Positions 57,827-64,000 of a stretch of 64,000 bases of DNA are shown piece by piece. The DNA lies in NCBI RefSeq assembly GCF_009177095.1, contig NZ_AP021861.1, positions 1,426,001 through 1,490,000 of the forward strand, in the 5' to 3' direction. Within the stretch, counting starts at the first letter, position 1. Each line of letters begins with the position of its first letter. Under the pieces are notes generated by a model. That model saw nothing but the letters and a program-made list of their open reading frames with translations. It was not told the origin of the DNA and did not search any database. The stretch comes from Lacipirellula parvula (GTDB lineage: Bacteria > Planctomycetota > Planctomycetia > Pirellulales > Lacipirellulaceae). The translations under genes were made by a program, and so were the position numbers.

Positions 57827-60802
57827 ATGTTTGAGAACCGTAGCTTAAAGCTCGATCTCGTTGCGCTCGCGCTCTTGGCGTGTTGCGCCTTCTTGGTGAC
57901 CGCGCTGGCGACGTACGACCCAGCCGATCAGCCGGGGACGCTCGTTTACCCGCCGCGGCCGGAGTACTCGAACGCCTGCGGTCCGATTGGCGCCTACGTG
58001 GCGCATGCGCTCTACGCTGGCGTTGGCTATGGCGCCTATTACTTACTCGGTTCGCTGGTAACGCTCAGCGTGCTGCTGCTGAAGCGGCGTGAGATTGATC
58101 AGCCGGTGCTGCGCGGCGTCGGTTGGGCGATTTCGCTCGCCGCGTTCGCGACGTTGTTCTCGATGCTCTTTCAGCAAAGCTCGCCGGGCCCGGAAGTCGG
58201 CGCCGGCGGCTATTTGGGAGCCATGGGCTTCGCGCTGCTCGAATCGAAGTTCGCGCTCGTGGGAGCGTTCATCCTGGCCCTCAGCGTGCTGATGGCCGGT
58301 CTATTGTTGTGTACCGACTACCTGCTGTTGCGGTTTGCAGCGAAGACGACCGTCGTTTCGGGCGCCGGGCTGATGCAGCTCGGCCGCGTGGGGCAACGCG
58401 TCGCGACGATGGGCACGACTTCACGTCGCTTGAGTGATCTCGAAGACGGGATCGAAGAGGAAGAGGAATTCGACGAAGCCGAAGCTGAGGAATCCGCTGA
58501 GGAAGAGTGGGAAGAGGAAGAAGCGGCTGAAGGCGACGATGAGGCCGAGGAAGAACTCCATTCGCTGCGGGTGAAGACCCCCAGCAGCAAGCAAGCGGCT
58601 GCCGAGGAAGAGGTTAGCGCCGACGTCGTGGCGCTCGCCGACGACGACGAGGATGCAAAAGAAGACGCAGACGAATCAGCAGCAGCCGGTGAAAAGCCGC
58701 TGGGGATGCGCGCCAAGGTCGCGTCCGCGCTGAAGATCACCAACAACCGCGTCGCCAAACCGAAGCCGAAGTCGGAACGCGAAGAGGTGATGGAGCAACT
58801 CGACGCCGCCGAAAACCAAGGCGCCGGCGAGTTCGATTACCAATTGCCGCCGCTTGAACTGCTGCTCCCCTCGGACGAGGTGAGCTACGAAGAGCACGAG
58901 AAGGAAGTCCGCCGGAAGGCGAAGATCCTGGAAAAGACCTTCCAGAACTTCGGCTTCAACGTGAAAGTCGTCGAAATCGAGACCGGCCCGGTCATCGCTC
59001 AGTTCGAAGTCGAGCTCGAAGCGGGCTTGCGGCTGTCGAAGATCACCGGCCTGGCCGACGACTTGGCGATCGCGCTCCGCGTGCCGAGCGTCCGCATCGT
59101 CGCGCCGATCCCCGGCAAGAACACCGTTGGCATTGAAGTGCCGAACGAGCATCGCCAGCTCGTGCGCATCCGCGAGGTGATCGAAGAGACAGACAGCCGC
59201 GCCAAGCGGATGAAGATTCCGATCTACCTTGGCAAAGACGTTGCCGGCAATTCGATGGCGGTCGATCTCGCGTCGCTGCCGCATCTGCTGATCGCCGGTC
59301 GTACTGGTACGGGTAAGTCGGTCTGCCTCAACTCGATCATCGTCTCGATGATCATGAGCCGCGGGCCGGACGAAGTACGGATGCTGATGATCGACCCGAA
59401 GATGGTCGAACTCAGCGGCTACCGCCAGCTGCCGCACCTGATGCATCCGGTGGTGACCGACATGAAGAAGGCCGAGGCGATCCTCGGCTGGGCGGTCGAG
59501 AAGATGGAAGAGCGTTACGCGATGCTGGCCCGCGCCGGCGTGCGGCACGTGACGGTCTACAACCAGCTCGGCGAGGAAGAGCTGCGCGAGCGGGTCAAAC
59601 CGACCAGCGAACTCGAGTGGGAGAATATTCCGCGGAACTTGCCGTTCATCGTGATCATCGCCGACGAAATGGCGGATCTCATGATGACCGCCGGCAAGGA
59701 AGTGGAACAGCACATCATCCGCCTCGCCCAAAAGAGCCGTGCGGTCGGCATTCACCTGATTCTCGCCACGCAGAAACCGACGGTCGACGTTATCACCGGT
59801 TTGATCAAGTCGAACTTGCCGGCCCGCATCGCGTTTCAGGTGGCGAGCCGCACCGACAGTCGCGTCGTGCTCGACGAGAATGGCGCCGACAAGCTGCTCG
59901 GCAACGGCGATATGTTGTTCCTCTCGCCAGGGACGAGCCAGTTGCTCCGCGGCCAGGGAACGTACCTCTCCGACGACGAAATCACAAAGGTCACCGAGTA
60001 CGTGGCGACCGACGCGCCGCAGTTCGCTCGCGAGTTGATCGACTTGAAGTCGAAGGACGAAGCCGCCGCTGAAATGCCGATGCCCGGCGCCGAGATGAAG
60101 AGCCGCGACGACCTGTACGAAGCGGCGGTCGACATTGTGGTGCGCGAACGGCGCGGCAGCGTGTCGTTGCTGCAGCGGTGCCTTGGCATCGGCTACGGCC
60201 GCGCGGCGCGTTTGATCGACTACATGGCCGAGGATGGCATCGTCGGCGAGTACAACGGTTCGCAGGCCCGCGAAGTGGCGATCTCAGTCGAAGACTGGGA
60301 AGCGATGTCGAGCGCCAACAAGGCCGAGGCCAATGGCGAGGAGCCAGAGGCCGCGTCGCCGGCGGCTCCCCCTGCGCCGCCGATCGCGGCGAGTGCTCCG
60401 TCGCAGGAACGCCGCAAGACTAACAAGATCCTGCCGGGCTCCGACGAGCCGAGCGATTTGGAGGACGAAACGCCGCCGCCGAAGAGCCGCGCGTTACGCC
60501 TCGGCCGCGACGCCGATGAGGAAGAAGAGGAAGAAGAGGAAGAAGTCGAAGAGGCAGAAGACGACTCCGAGTGGGAAGAGGAATCCGAAGCCGAAGAGGA
60601 CGAGGAATACGACGAAGAGGAATCTGAGGAAGCCGACGACGAAGAGTGGGATGAAGAAGAGGAAGGCGAAGAAGCCGAAGAGGGCGAGGACGAACTGTGG
60701 GAAGAGGATGAAGAGGAAGAGTCGGAGTGGGATGACGAGGAGGAAGCGGAAGAGGACGACGATGATCTAGAGGACCACGGAAAGCGGGCCGCGAGTGCTT
60801 AA
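57827..60802 (+). CDS. ftsK: DNA translocase FtsK with long acidic C-terminal tail
   Basis: FtsK pumps DNA at the division septum and aids dimer resolution. From the ATG at 57827 it has 991 residues: four membrane helices (about 8-170), an acidic linker (about 200-300), the motor domain with Walker A IAGRTGTGKSVCLNSIIVSM and Walker B FIVIIADEMADLMM, and the winged-helix gamma domain (VSLLQRCLGIGYGRAARLID, about 800-850). A tail of about 140 residues follows gamma, its last 100 almost only Glu and Asp. Most FtsK proteins end at gamma. Start choice puts MFENRSLKLDL before the first helix. Confidence 0.93.
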   Translation: MFENRSLKLDLVALALLACCAFLVTALATYDPADQPGTLVYPPRPEYSNACGPIGAYVAHALYAGVGYGAYYLLGSLVTLSVLLLKRREIDQPVLRGVGWAISLAAFATLFSMLFQQSSPGPEVGAGGYLGAMGFALLESKFALVGAFILALSVLMAGLLLCTDYLLLRFAAKTTVVSGAGLMQLGRVGQRVATMGTTSRRLSDLEDGIEEEEEFDEAEAEESAEEEWEEEEAAEGDDEAEEELHSLRVKTPSSKQAAAEEEVSADVVALADDDEDAKEDADESAAAGEKPLGMRAKVASALKITNNRVAKPKPKSEREEVMEQLDAAENQGAGEFDYQLPPLELLLPSDEVSYEEHEKEVRRKAKILEKTFQNFGFNVKVVEIETGPVIAQFEVELEAGLRLSKITGLADDLAIALRVPSVRIVAPIPGKNTVGIEVPNEHRQLVRIREVIEETDSRAKRMKIPIYLGKDVAGNSMAVDLASLPHLLIAGRTGTGKSVCLNSIIVSMIMSRGPDEVRMLMIDPKMVELSGYRQLPHLMHPVVTDMKKAEAILGWAVEKMEERYAMLARAGVRHVTVYNQLGEEELRERVKPTSELEWENIPRNLPFIVIIADEMADLMMTAGKEVEQHIIRLAQKSRAVGIHLILATQKPTVDVITGLIKSNLPARIAFQVASRTDSRVVLDENGADKLLGNGDMLFLSPGTSQLLRGQGTYLSDDEITKVTEYVATDAPQFARELIDLKSKDEAAAEMPMPGAEMKSRDDLYEAAVDIVVRERRGSVSLLQRCLGIGYGRAARLIDYMAEDGIVGEYNGSQAREVAISVEDWEAMSSANKAEANGEEPEAASPAAPPAPPIAASAPSQERRKTNKILPGSDEPSDLEDETPPPKSRALRLGRDADEEEEEEEEEVEEAEDDSEWEEESEAEEDEEYDEEESEEADDEEWDEEEEGEEAEEGEDELWEEDEEEESEWDDEEEAEEDDDDLEDHGKRAASA

Positions 60803-60812
60803 GCACTCGCGG
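60789..60812. repeat. 24-bp palindrome over the ftsK stop codon
   Basis: CCGCGAGTGCTT and its reverse complement AAGCACTCGCGG meet without spacer; the TAA stop is at 60800-60802, in the centre. It is placed to form a stem-loop at the mRNA 3' end, again without a T tract. Confidence 0.8.
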
Positions 60813-60845
60813 GAAGCCATTCCCAACCCCGCAAACCTCCCCAAT

Positions 60846-60874
60846 TTGACAGGCCCCAGTCGCGCCTTTATCCT
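60846..60874 (+). promoter_or_regulatory. Near-consensus promoter of the cimA leader
   Basis: A perfect -35 box TTGACA (60846-60851) lies exactly 17 bases before TATCCT (60869-60874), a four-of-six -10 box. The transcription start would be near 60881, about 30 bases before the leader-peptide ATG. This is the best sigma-70-type promoter in the window. Confidence 0.75.
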
Positions 60875-60911
60875 TAAGTGACTCGACCCGTGACGTTTGG
60901 ACCCCGTTTTA

Positions 60912-61004
60912 ATGCCCGCAAAGCAGCCGCTTTCGAAGATTCGCCTCACGACGCCGCACGGCATCGTCGCGATTAGCATTATTATTCGGGAGGTCCGGCC
61001 TTAG
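60912..61004 (+). CDS. Isoleucine-rich leader peptide of cimA (30 aa)
   Basis: The frame begins ATG at 60912 and reads M-P-A-K-Q-P-L-S-K-I-R-L-T-T-P-H, then GIVAISIIIREVRP and TAG at 61002-61004. Six of 30 codons are Ile, including three consecutive ATT (60978-60986), plus two Val and two Leu. It sits between a strong promoter and a terminator, 150 bases before citramalate synthase. This is the design of an attenuator leader peptide, as in ilv and leu operons. The ribosome-binding site is weak (TTGGA). It is too short for normal gene calling. Translation is untested. Confidence 0.72.
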   Translation: MPAKQPLSKIRLTTPHGIVAISIIIREVRP

Positions 61005-61068
61005 GGGTTGATGATCGAAACCTTCGATTTACCAAAACCCTGAGGCCAAAAGGCCCCAGGGTTTTTTT
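60997..61068 (+). promoter_or_regulatory. Isoleucine attenuator: antiterminator/terminator switch
   Basis: Terminator: AAAACCCTGAGGCC (61034-61047), loop AAAA, GGCCCCAGGGTTTTTTT (61052-61068), giving a 13-bp stem with one mismatch and seven T. Antiterminator: GGCCTTAGGG (60997-61006), which overlaps the leader stop codon, pairs with CCCTGAGGCC (61038-61047) over 10 bp with one G-U pair. The two structures share 61038-61047 and are exclusive. A ribosome stalled on the ATT run leaves 60997-61006 free, giving read-through into cimA; a ribosome at the stop codon covers it, giving termination. A small ATCGAA/TTCGAT hairpin (61014-61028) lies between. Confidence 0.75.
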
Positions 61069-61074
61069 ATTGGA

Positions 61075-61148
61075 AGCGGTCAGCATTCAGCGATCAGCAG
61101 TCAGCAAGACTGCATTGGCTGAAAGCTGACAGCTGAACGCTGAAAGCT
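61075..61148. repeat. Inverted repeat before cimA, AGCATTCAGCGATCAGC type
   Basis: AGCGGTCAGCATTCAGC (61075-61091) and GCTGAACGCT / GCTGAAAGCT words near 61119-61148 form imperfect inverted arms. It separates the attenuator terminator from cimA and leaves little space for a ribosome-binding site. Confidence 0.65.
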
Positions 61149-61153
61149 ATTCG

Positions 61154-62716
61154 ATGCACATCCAGATCTACGACACGACGCTACGCGACGGGGCCCAGGG
61201 CGAGGGCGTGAGCTTTTCGCTCGAGGACAAGATCCTCATTGCGCGGCGGCTCGACGAGCTGGGGTTCGATTATATCGAAGGGGGCTATCCTCTTTCGAAT
61301 CCGAAGGACGCTGAGTTTTTCCAACGGCTCGCCGCCGAACCGCTCAAGCGGTCGAAGCTGTGCGCCTTTGGCATGACGCGGCGCCGCGGGATGAAGCCGG
61401 CCGACGACCCGGGGATGAAGTGCCTTCTCGATGCGCGGACGCCGGTCGTGACGATCGTCGGCAAGACGAGCGATTTCCACGCCACCGAAATCCTCGGCGT
61501 CTCGCTCGAAGAAAACTTGGCGATGATCAGCGAGACGGTCGCTTACCTGGTGAGCGAAGGTCGCGAGGTCATCTACGACGCCGAGCACTTCTTCGATACT
61601 TGGAAGTCGAACCCCAAGTATGCTGCTGAAACGATCCGCGCCGCGGCGAAGGCGGGAGCGTCGCTTATCGTGATGTGCGATACCAACGGCGGCACGCTGC
61701 CGGAGGAGATCGAGCGGGTCACCAAGGAAGCCTCGGTCACGGTCAACGTCCCGCTCGGTATCCATTGTCACAACGATTGCGAACTGGCGGTTGCCAATTC
61801 ATTGGCAGCCGTGGACGCCGGCGCCGTGCAAGTGCAGGGCACAGTCAACGGCCTCGGCGAGCGTTGCGGTAACGTTGACCTCATTTCGGTGATGGGCAAC
61901 CTCGCCCTCAAGAAGAAGGGCTACGAGGTCCTCGCCGGCGACGACGTGCAGCATCTCACTGAGCTGTCGCGCTACGTCTACGAAGTCGCCAACATGAACT
62001 TCCGCAACGGCCAGCCGTTCGTCGGCGCCAGTGCGTTCGCCCACAAGGGAGGCATGCACGTCCACGCGGTGGCGAAGGCGGCCCACAGCTACGAGCACAT
62101 CGACCCCGCCGCCGTCGGCAACGAACGCCGCATCTTGGTGAGCGAACTCTCTGGCCGGTCAAACATCATCGCTCTGGCGACGAAGCATAACCTCGCTCAA
62201 GACAAAGAACTAATGACCCGCGTGCTCGACGAGATCGTCGACCGCGAAAACCGTGGCTATCAATACGAAGCGGCCGAGGCGTCGTTCGAACTGTTGGTTC
62301 GCCAACTTGCGGGCGACTTCCATCCGCACTTCAAGCTCGATCGCTATCGCGTCTCGGTCGGTAGCCAGTCGAATGAAACTGTCACGGAAGCGACGGTGAA
62401 GCTCGCAATCGGCGACGATGTGTTCCTCGAAGTCGCCGAGGGCGACGGCCCGGTGAACGCTCTCGATGCCGCCTTACGCGGAGCATTGGTAAAGCGGTTC
62501 CCATCGGTGGCGACGATGCACCTCAGCGACTACAAGGTCCGCGTCATCAACGGCGAAGCGGGCACCGCCGCCCGCGTGCGGGTGATCATCGAAAGCCAGG
62601 ACGACGAGGATAGCTGGACCACCGTCGGCGTCCACGAAAACGTCATCGAAGCGAGCTGGGGCGCCCTCGTCGACAGCATCGAGTACAAGCTGTGCAAGGA
62701 CGACGGCGGTAAATAG
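61154..62716 (+). CDS. cimA: (R)-citramalate synthase
   Basis: CimA condenses pyruvate and acetyl-CoA to citramalate, opening the threonine-independent route to 2-oxobutyrate and isoleucine. The 520-residue protein belongs to the DRE-TIM group: YDTTLRDGAQGEGVSFSLED, FDYIEGGYPLSNPKD, the GIHCHNDCELAVANSLAAVD metal site and NGLGERCGNVDLISVMGNL. The C-terminal LeuA-type allosteric domain (about 390-520) is present. The Glu-Gly-Gly-Tyr-Pro substrate loop and length separate it from LeuA. Control by an upstream Ile-leader attenuator is proposed from sequence. Confidence 0.93.
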   Translation: MHIQIYDTTLRDGAQGEGVSFSLEDKILIARRLDELGFDYIEGGYPLSNPKDAEFFQRLAAEPLKRSKLCAFGMTRRRGMKPADDPGMKCLLDARTPVVTIVGKTSDFHATEILGVSLEENLAMISETVAYLVSEGREVIYDAEHFFDTWKSNPKYAAETIRAAAKAGASLIVMCDTNGGTLPEEIERVTKEASVTVNVPLGIHCHNDCELAVANSLAAVDAGAVQVQGTVNGLGERCGNVDLISVMGNLALKKKGYEVLAGDDVQHLTELSRYVYEVANMNFRNGQPFVGASAFAHKGGMHVHAVAKAAHSYEHIDPAAVGNERRILVSELSGRSNIIALATKHNLAQDKELMTRVLDEIVDRENRGYQYEAAEASFELLVRQLAGDFHPHFKLDRYRVSVGSQSNETVTEATVKLAIGDDVFLEVAEGDGPVNALDAALRGALVKRFPSVATMHLSDYKVRVINGEAGTAARVRVIIESQDDEDSWTTVGVHENVIEASWGALVDSIEYKLCKDDGGK

Positions 62717-62876: not shown

Positions 62877-64000
62877 ATGAGCGACGATTCCCTCTCCGCC
62901 GCCGGCGAACTCCCCTCGCAGTACGACCACGAAGGCGCCCAGCGGCGTTGGTATAAGGTTTGGGAACAGCGCGGCTATTTTCATGCTGAGCCCGGCGCCA
63001 AAGATAAGGACGGCAAAGTAAAACCGCCATACACGATCGTCATCCCGCCGCCGAACGTCACGGGCGCCCTCCACCTCGGCCACGCCCTCAACAACACGCT
63101 GCAAGACATCCTCATTCGCATGAAGCGGATGCAAGGGTTCAACGCCCTCTGGATGCCGGGGACCGACCACGCGGGGATCGCCACCCAGGCGGTCGTCGAG
63201 CGGCGGTTGCTCGAAGAGCAAAAGCTGTCGCGGCACGACCTCGGCCGCGAAGGGCTCATCGAAAAAATCTGGGAATGGAAGGCCCAGTACGAAAAGCGGA
63301 TCATCGGCCAGCTGAAGCAGATCGGCTGCAGCTGCGACTGGGAGCGGCTGCGGTTCACGCTCGACGAGACGTGCGCGCGGGCGGTCCGCGAGACGTTCTT
63401 CCGTCTGTTCCAAGATGGAAAAATCTACCGCGGCAAGCGGCTCGTCAATTGGGATACCTATCTGCAAACGGCCGTCAGCGACGATGAGGTCTTCAAGGAA
63501 CCGGTGAAGGGCCACTTCTGGCATTTCAAGTACCCGGTGGTGAAGGATGCGAAGTGGAAAAAGGGCGAGCCCGAGTTCGTCACGATCGCCACGACGCGGC
63601 CCGAGACGATGCTCGGCGACACGGCGGTGGCAGTGCACCCCGACCCGGCGGCGGCGTTCGATAAGGTCGGCGCCGAATTGCGCGAGCGGATGCTCGCCGC
63701 GCCGGCCAAAGAAAAAGGTGCCCTCGAAGAGGAGGCGACGCTGCTGCTCGAACGCCGCGCGCGGATGCTCCCGCATCTCGAAACGCTGCGCGACATGGCG
63801 CAGCGGGGCGTGATGCTGGAACTCCCCCTCACCGGTCGCCAGATTCCGCTCATCGCCGACGAATGGGCGAAGCCGGAGCTTGGTTCGGGCTGCGTGAAGA
63901 TCACGCCGGCCCACGACGAGAACGACTACGCGGTTTGGCAGCGGAATCTCGAAATCGGCGCGATCAATATCATGACGCCTGATGGAAAGCTTAACGAAAA
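62877..64000 (+). CDS. valS: Valyl-tRNA synthetase, N-terminal part
   Basis: The frame is open from the ATG at 62877 (MSDDSLSAAGELPSQYDHEG) to the window edge, 374 codons. Class I features: VIPPPNVTGALHLGHALNNT (HIGH-type motif), WMPGTDHAGIATQAVVERRL and the CP1 editing segment TIATTRPETMLGDTAVAVHP. An extra stretch of about 50 charged residues (from FDKVGAELRERMLAAPAKEK to ETLRDMAQRG) sits within the editing domain. It continues beyond the window. It follows cimA after a hairpin repeat. Confidence 0.96.
   Translation, partial: MSDDSLSAAGELPSQYDHEGAQRRWYKVWEQRGYFHAEPGAKDKDGKVKPPYTIVIPPPNVTGALHLGHALNNTLQDILIRMKRMQGFNALWMPGTDHAGIATQAVVERRLLEEQKLSRHDLGREGLIEKIWEWKAQYEKRIIGQLKQIGCSCDWERLRFTLDETCARAVRETFFRLFQDGKIYRGKRLVNWDTYLQTAVSDDEVFKEPVKGHFWHFKYPVVKDAKWKKGEPEFVTIATTRPETMLGDTAVAVHPDPAAAFDKVGAELRERMLAAPAKEKGALEEEATLLLERRARMLPHLETLRDMAQRGVMLELPLTGRQIPLIADEWAKPELGSGCVKITPAHDENDYAVWQRNLEIGAINIMTPDGKLNE

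Follow-up and report, generated by a model that had tools for sequence, protein, structure and literature searches.

A probable ribosome-mediated isoleucine attenuator upstream of cimA in Lacipirellula parvula, with related leaders in other planctomycetes

The trp, his, leu and ilvGMEDA attenuators of Escherichia coli and Salmonella share one set of parts: a promoter, a short frame enriched in end-product codons, a terminator and an antiterminator that exclude each other, and a stop codon near the antiterminator. Amino-acid attenuators have also been modelled (PMC1183508, available part). For Actinobacteria, the available part of PMC1262725 describes candidate leader peptides and attenuators of trp, ilvB and leuS and a LEU element of leuA; cimA and planctomycetes are not mentioned in that part of the text. 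In Corynebacterium, the ilvB-II uORF motif has a branched-chain-enriched uORF and a terminator/antiterminator, with reporter support (PMC10272879, available part). In the open-licence PubMed Central literature, we found no described leader for cimA and no account of such an element in planctomycetes; an earlier prediction may exist in the two most relevant surveys, Vitreschak 2004 and Lopatovskaya 2010. This kind of attenuation is already known, and its occurrence before cimA and in planctomycetes is the part for which no earlier description was located.

We analyzed a 64,000-nucleotide stretch of the Lacipirellula parvula genome, called the window here. A sequence-only reading of this stretch had proposed an isoleucine attenuator in front of a citramalate synthase gene. 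Positions 60846-61068, upstream of cimA, read as a promoter, a leader frame, an antiterminator and a terminator, in that order (Table 1). We estimate a probability of about 0.94 that this element is a classic ribosome-mediated transcription attenuator, which would sense charged tRNA-Ile and control cimA. All the parts that the sequence-only reading had named were recovered: the promoter boxes with their 17-base spacer, the 30-codon frame with six Ile codons, the seven-T terminator, the antiterminator lying over the leader stop, and cimA itself as the downstream gene. The three consecutive ATT codons occupy 60978-60986. The antiterminator strands GGCCTTAGGG and CCCTGAGGCC form 10 pairs, one of them G-U. 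The terminator stem spans 61035-61065 with one A.C mismatch, and the seven T are at 61062-61068. A promoter scan returned two sites in the surrounding kilobase, one per strand, where 0.2 were expected.

Table 1. Features of the cimA leader region in the window, and of two further leaders in the same genome (G000)
Feature	Position	Strand	Basis
Sigma-70-type promoter-like pair, TTGACA-17-TATCCT	60846..60874	+	10/12 consensus letters
5' leader strand, predicted protector ('1:2' helix) with about 60988-61012	60883..60906	+	predicted from folds
Leader peptide frame MPAKQPLSKIRLTTPHGIVAISIIIREVRP, 30 codons, ATG 60912, stop TAG 61002-61004	60912..61004	+	sequence, conservation
Control codons ATT AGC ATT ATT ATT (Ile Ser Ile Ile Ile)	60972..60986	+	sequence
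Antiterminator 5' strand GGCCTTAGGG, holds the frame's stop codon	60997..61006	+	sequence, alignment
Small hairpin inside the antiterminator loop	61013..61029	+	fold, z -3.5
Antiterminator 3' strand CCCTGAGGCC, also terminator 5' arm	61038..61047	+	sequence, covariation
Intrinsic terminator hairpin and seven-T tract	61035..61068	+	sequence, fold, covariation
cimA, citramalate synthase, presumed regulated gene	61154..62716	+	TIGR00977 equivalog, 675 bits, cut-off 450
valS, valyl-tRNA synthetase, runs past window end	62877..64000	+	valine--tRNA ligase families best
Leucine attenuator before leuA (L060)	C1:1958142-1958254	-	second-best R1 hit
Aromatic-rich leader frame and terminator before DAHP synthase (L061)	C1:4134954-4135010	-	R1

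If the element works as a classic attenuator, RNA polymerase would start near 60881 and a ribosome would follow on the leader frame. With ample Ile-tRNA, the ribosome would reach the TAG at 61002 and cover 60997-61006. The strand 61038-61047 would then be free, the terminator would form, and most transcripts would end near 61068. With Ile-tRNA in short supply, the ribosome would stall on the ATT codons between 60972 and 60986 with its leading edge at about 60997. The strand 60997-61006 would then capture 61038-61047, the terminator would not form, and cimA, perhaps with valS, would be transcribed. Without translation, the strand 60883-60906 would probably cover the antiterminator strand, and termination would be the default.

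The spacing of the parts was compared with this scheme. A ribosome on the last ATT (60984-60986) would cover the RNA to about 60998; of the ten bases in 60997-61006, eight would then remain accessible, whereas all ten would be hidden under a ribosome at the stop codon. In alignment A1, 26 of the 28 leaders have their last Ile codon starting 13 or 16 nt ahead of the antiterminator strand; in the remaining two, this distance is 10 and 19 nt. The rows of A1 were picked after their Ile-rich frames had been seen, and the covariance model R1 is biased accordingly; the promoter, spacing and codon counts given here rest on these 28 rows. At these loci, ATT accounts for 81 of 109 Ile codons in the leaders and for 121 of 699 in the cimA genes (odds ratio 13.8). 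ATT and ATC are normally decoded by one tRNA. This strong bias towards ATT may stem from decoding speed or from a requirement for unpaired RNA at that point, and it poses a clean question on codon choice in sensing.

The protector is the one part that stands apart. Long protector-like helices were also predicted in three congeners (L010, L011 and L039), and 79.6% of the cells were paired, with no double change in the four congeneric sequences. Folding suggests that the 60883-60906 strand may act as a protector of the antiterminator strand. Given a promoter-like pair, end-product codons, a terminator, an antiterminator exclusive with it and control codons placed as described, the parts fit classic attenuation wherever sequence can test it, the protector helix excepted.

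The element was also compared with chance. The leader RNA fold had a z-score of -5.7, and none of 200 shuffles was equally stable. The small hairpin in the antiterminator loop was partly conserved (z < -1 in 14 of 28 leaders). Both strands of the 64000 bases were scanned for a terminator together with an antiterminator and a short-frame stop touching that antiterminator; amino acids were ignored, two stem mismatches were tolerated, and the antiterminator had to use the 5' arm of the terminator. The scan returned a single place, the 61 kb element, at all three threshold settings, including the loosest, at which nine terminators were available. The frame at this place has five Ile in its last 15 codons. 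A simple terminator scan found no site in the element's kilobase versus 1.5 expected in shuffles, presumably because of the A.C mismatch.

To place the element among relatives, CimA was searched at E 0.001, and matches, leuA-like ones included, were obtained in 58 of 59 genomes, the own genome counted. Upstream DNA was read at 50 Pirellulales cimA loci, namely 49 of the 52 full-length ones and a two-piece locus of genome G001. The attenuator element was found by hand upstream of 37 of the 50 genes. These comprise the 28 rows of A1; six loci with R1 E < 1e-7 (L041, L043, L048, L053, L054 and L057); L050 (R1 E 2.2e-5), whose peptide ends in RIIIIPA; and L029 and L030 (also recorded as L105 and L106), where the element lies about 2 kb 5' of cimA with other sequence between. 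The weakest leaders are L043 and L048, each with two Ile among its last 15 codons. No leader was found at the other 13 loci (L015, L018, L021, L022, L023, L027, L028, L034, L035, L038, L040, L047 and L049) within the 1500 bases or less of upstream DNA on which they were judged; two leaders sat about 2 kb away, and some may have been missed. That no leader was found near 13 of 50 cimA genes suggests that the element is dispensable in some lineages.

The congeners L010, L011 and L039 keep the promoter, the frame (ending in IIREVRP or IIRKVRP), the stop within the antiterminator and the terminator. Leaders of the window's genus also hold Val codons, and the peptides of L010 and L011 carry GVVVIG ahead of the Ile run. 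A promoter-like pair with at least 8 of 12 consensus letters precedes 27 of the 28 aligned leaders, 24 of them with a spacer of exactly 17, versus 5.4% of shuffles. Conservation of the short frame among close relatives, set as a test by the sequence-only reading, was thus observed in the three congeners and, with the rest of the element, before most Pirellulales cimA genes.

The same reading had also expected co-varying pairs in both hairpins. In A1, the terminator behaved in this way: 91.1% of its cells were paired and 8 of its 13 pairs showed double-sided changes, a number reached by 0 of 500 shuffles. The antiterminator showed little covariation within the order. Its cells were 88.9% paired, a percentage reached by 17 of 500 shuffles; three pairs showed a double change, and shifting the helix by +1 to +3 columns gave a covariation score as high. 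Low variation in the antiterminator is expected, since its strands double as stop-codon carrier and terminator arm, and by itself it is no evidence for the helix.

Across orders, TGA was the stop in all 13 leaders with a CTCAG-type arm and in 4 of the 63 with other arms; related species in this sample are not independent, and most of the 13 may come from a single clade. In L070, for example, GACCTGAGG lies opposite CCTCAGGTC. In three of the 13 (L076, L110 and L113), the TGA lies outside the pairing stretch. Rows were kept with at least three Ile (cimA) or at least four Leu (leuA), and the arm bins were drawn after inspection. L068 and L115 look like a single record, as do L018 and L107. Support for the antiterminator improves across orders, where stop and arm change together.

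The codon specificity was analyzed with leaders picked by structure alone, which avoids the bias of the A1 rows. Twenty-five of the 50 cimA loci qualified, and over the last 15 codons of their leaders the mean was 3.6 for Ile and 0.4 for Leu. For leuA, upstream DNA was fetched for 40 of the 56 leuA-like places with E < 1e-41; 27 of the 40 qualified, with means of 6.81 Leu and 0.04 Ile. Rank tests between the cimA and leuA leaders gave p values of 1.3e-10 for Ile and 1.1e-9 for Leu. Two outliers were kept in these counts: L056, a cimA locus where a frame other than the Ile-rich one was picked, and L191, a leuA locus whose pick has zero Leu in its final 15 codons. Ile before cimA and Leu before leuA, within the same RNA architecture, support the isoleucine attenuator that had been proposed.

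The window's own genome contains both kinds of counterpart listed in Table 1. The frame of L060, MPALNLNSLLLLLLAEGKA, has six Leu in a row, and its stop lies in GGCTTAGGGTT, inside the antiterminator; the following gene is leuA, 2-isopropylmalate synthase (NF002086, 710 bits, cut-off 532). The frame of L061, MMTTYLYYFWFSFTDAFFFRTGVVAGGCA, has a GTG start, precedes a DAHP synthase gene (NF006421, 484.9 bits, cut-off 335) and has comparable frames in eight other genomes. L061 matches R1 only in the terminator half (56-111 of 111). Of the R1 hits examined, all nine that precede DAHP synthase had 7 to 11 aromatic residues in the last 30 codons, an upper bound as the most aromatic frame available was used. 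A plain terminator was considered for five of these hits (L061, L083, L089, L092 and L093) and rejected, as they have DAHP synthase downstream and aromatic-rich frames. Elsewhere in the genome, inspection of the DNA 5' of ilvB and of an ilvA-like gene (316 bits, under the family cut-off of 378.75) revealed no comparable leader, and a script found no terminator ahead of hisG, trpE or a trpE-like gene.

The attenuator might instead read branched-chain supply broadly, through both Ile and Val, which would suit a cimA-valS transcript. The GVVVIG segment before the Ile run in two congener peptides and the position of valS downstream of cimA in many relatives speak for this. The valS piece in the window is partial and scores below the full-length family cut-offs. 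A valS match lies 3' of cimA at 24 of 30 Pirellulales loci, the window's counted, and at 10 of 18 named loci searched. From this arrangement, valS is a possible second gene of the cimA transcript and perhaps falls under the same attenuator. However, Val averages 1.36 per 15 codons in the structure-only cimA leaders, against the 3.6 for Ile, and is absent from 9 of the 30 leaders listed; in the window, the repeated codons closest to the antiterminator encode Ile. We consider a joint Ile and Val sensor unlikely, and prefer the attenuator that would respond to Ile.

The region between the terminator and cimA differs among loci. In the window, about 61070-61152 is a dispersed TCAGC-type repeat that matches 27 other places in the genome; none of these matches includes the leader, and the repeat lies outside the element. 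The congeners have different sequence in its place. In L039, a frame for a four helix bundle protein (L039:1561-1950; TIGR02436, 113.7 bits), flanked by short repeats, lies between the attenuator and cimA. Comparable inserted frames between terminator and cimA were recognised by eye in L020, L025 and L033.

A second alternative is that the leader peptide acts in trans, or that the terminated RNA serves as a small RNA, for which the trp leader peptide peTrpL is a precedent (PMC7298713, available part). In Pirellulales, however, what is conserved in the peptide is chiefly its Ile codons and its end, which the antiterminator dictates, and the remainder varies, which argues against a function in trans; we regard this alternative as highly improbable and keep to an attenuator acting on cimA.

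The hairpin could also be a mere terminator of ftsK, with the short frame arising by chance. The ftsK gene is the upstream neighbour and ends at 60802 on the same strand as cimA, and R1 does score apparent plain terminators of upstream genes: L034 reached 39.1 bits and L038 reached 25.3 bits, with frames judged non-leader. However, ftsK and the hairpin are separated by a promoter-like pair, and the conserved Ile codons and their conserved spacing argue against a chance frame. Moreover, an ftsK match was found in only 7 of the 50 fetched cimA loci, and 4 of these have a leader (L009, L013, L039 and L041); L010 and L011 have a leader with no ftsK match in the fetched upstream DNA. Most leaders found stand without an upstream ftsK match, and a plain ftsK terminator was rejected as scarcely credible. 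A T-box or other ligand- or tRNA-binding riboswitch with an incidental frame was likewise rejected and has very little chance of being correct: the leader does have strong secondary structure, and some Actinobacteria have a T-box ahead of ileS (PMC1262725, available part), but eight leader loci matched no Rfam family at gathering score, the window leader gave nothing credible (lowest E 0.17, a microRNA family), no T-box was found in window positions 60700-61300 at E up to 10, and the control codons become Leu before leuA and aromatic before DAHP synthase.

The spread of the isoleucine attenuator and its counterparts beyond the order was examined with R1. R1 also picks up plain terminators, so downstream genes and peptides were used alongside; besides L034 and L038, such terminators were L062, L063, L065 and L066 in the own genome, and L085, L088 and L097. 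R1 matched 278 of 396 genomes in the order (E 0.01), 161 of 397 in the class (1e-6) and 43 of 294 in the phylum (1e-6), in samples that overlap and tallies that mix leuA, DAHP synthase and plain terminators. Eighteen further fetched hits in the own order stood before cimA (9), leuA (3), DAHP synthase (3) or none of these (3); one of the last three, L087, has an Ile-rich frame where its contig ends. The 22 fetched hits in other orders of the class gave 10 cimA, 10 leuA, 1 DAHP synthase and 1 none, and the 20 in other classes of the phylum gave 2, 3, 4 and 11, respectively. Counted over the last 18 codons in the order and class sets, Ile numbered 2 to 6 in the 19 frames before cimA and Leu 4 to 9 in the 13 before leuA, upper bounds given that the frame richest in the sought residue was chosen.

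We also looked at 80 named cimA loci. Twelve matched R1 at E 0.01, and 19, an upper bound, had a terminator and a frame with at least three Ile. Among these candidate loci are those of Gimesia MAGs, Planctomycetota strain ZRK32, and Phycisphaerales and Phycisphaeraceae MAGs, and outside the phylum those of a Syntrophus MAG, other deltaproteobacterial MAGs and one Acidobacteria MAG. No leader was found at the named cimA locus of Bythopirellula polymerisocia (L107), and no Ile-rich frame at the one named Gemmataceae cimA locus looked at (L117). The Ile leader for cimA that the sequence-only reading had put forward stands, and its scope was set too tightly: other orders and classes of the phylum also have related leaders, along with Leu and aromatic counterparts. 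One further hit, L231 in genome G793, scored 51.3 bits with R1 and has a terminator and a stop/antiterminator like GGACCTTAGGGC; no cimA, leuA or DAHP synthase gene was found downstream, and no clear control codons were seen.

We incline to the view that attenuation is an old, phylum-wide control of the enzymes that open the isoleucine (cimA), leucine (leuA) and aromatic (DAHP synthase) pathways in Planctomycetota, and comparable Ile leaders precede cimA in deltaproteobacterial MAGs. The Ile switch may act on valS as well, by way of the conserved pairing of cimA with valS. If this holds, its conservation would be genomic evidence of coupled transcription and translation in planctomycetes, whose cells have long been argued to be compartmented. 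A conserved attenuator makes such coupling testable, because the mechanism needs a ribosome close behind RNA polymerase. It would also extend a textbook mechanism, described mainly in Proteobacteria and Actinobacteria, to a phylum with little-known gene regulation. At the entry genes of three pathways, the switch between Ile, Leu and aromatic codons offers a natural experiment on specificity.

Compared with the E. coli and Salmonella attenuators, the cimA element has the same part list and is likened to them by architecture; it differs in its gene, cimA, in its phylum, Planctomycetota, and in having no Rfam match. Like the actinobacterial set, it was predicted from conserved leader peptides and terminators, whereas the actinobacterial LEU element of leuA is a pseudoknot with no terminator/antiterminator pair (PMC1262725, available part). 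It shares with the Corynebacterium ilvB-II motif a uORF with branched-chain codons and a terminator/antiterminator, but that motif, in another gene and phylum, has mixed I/L/V codons as far as the available part of PMC10272879 describes it, whereas here Ile stands before cimA and Leu before leuA. The leuA and DAHP synthase leaders of the same genome differ from it in their control codons and genes, and like it they consist of a short frame with the codons of the pathway, followed by a terminator.
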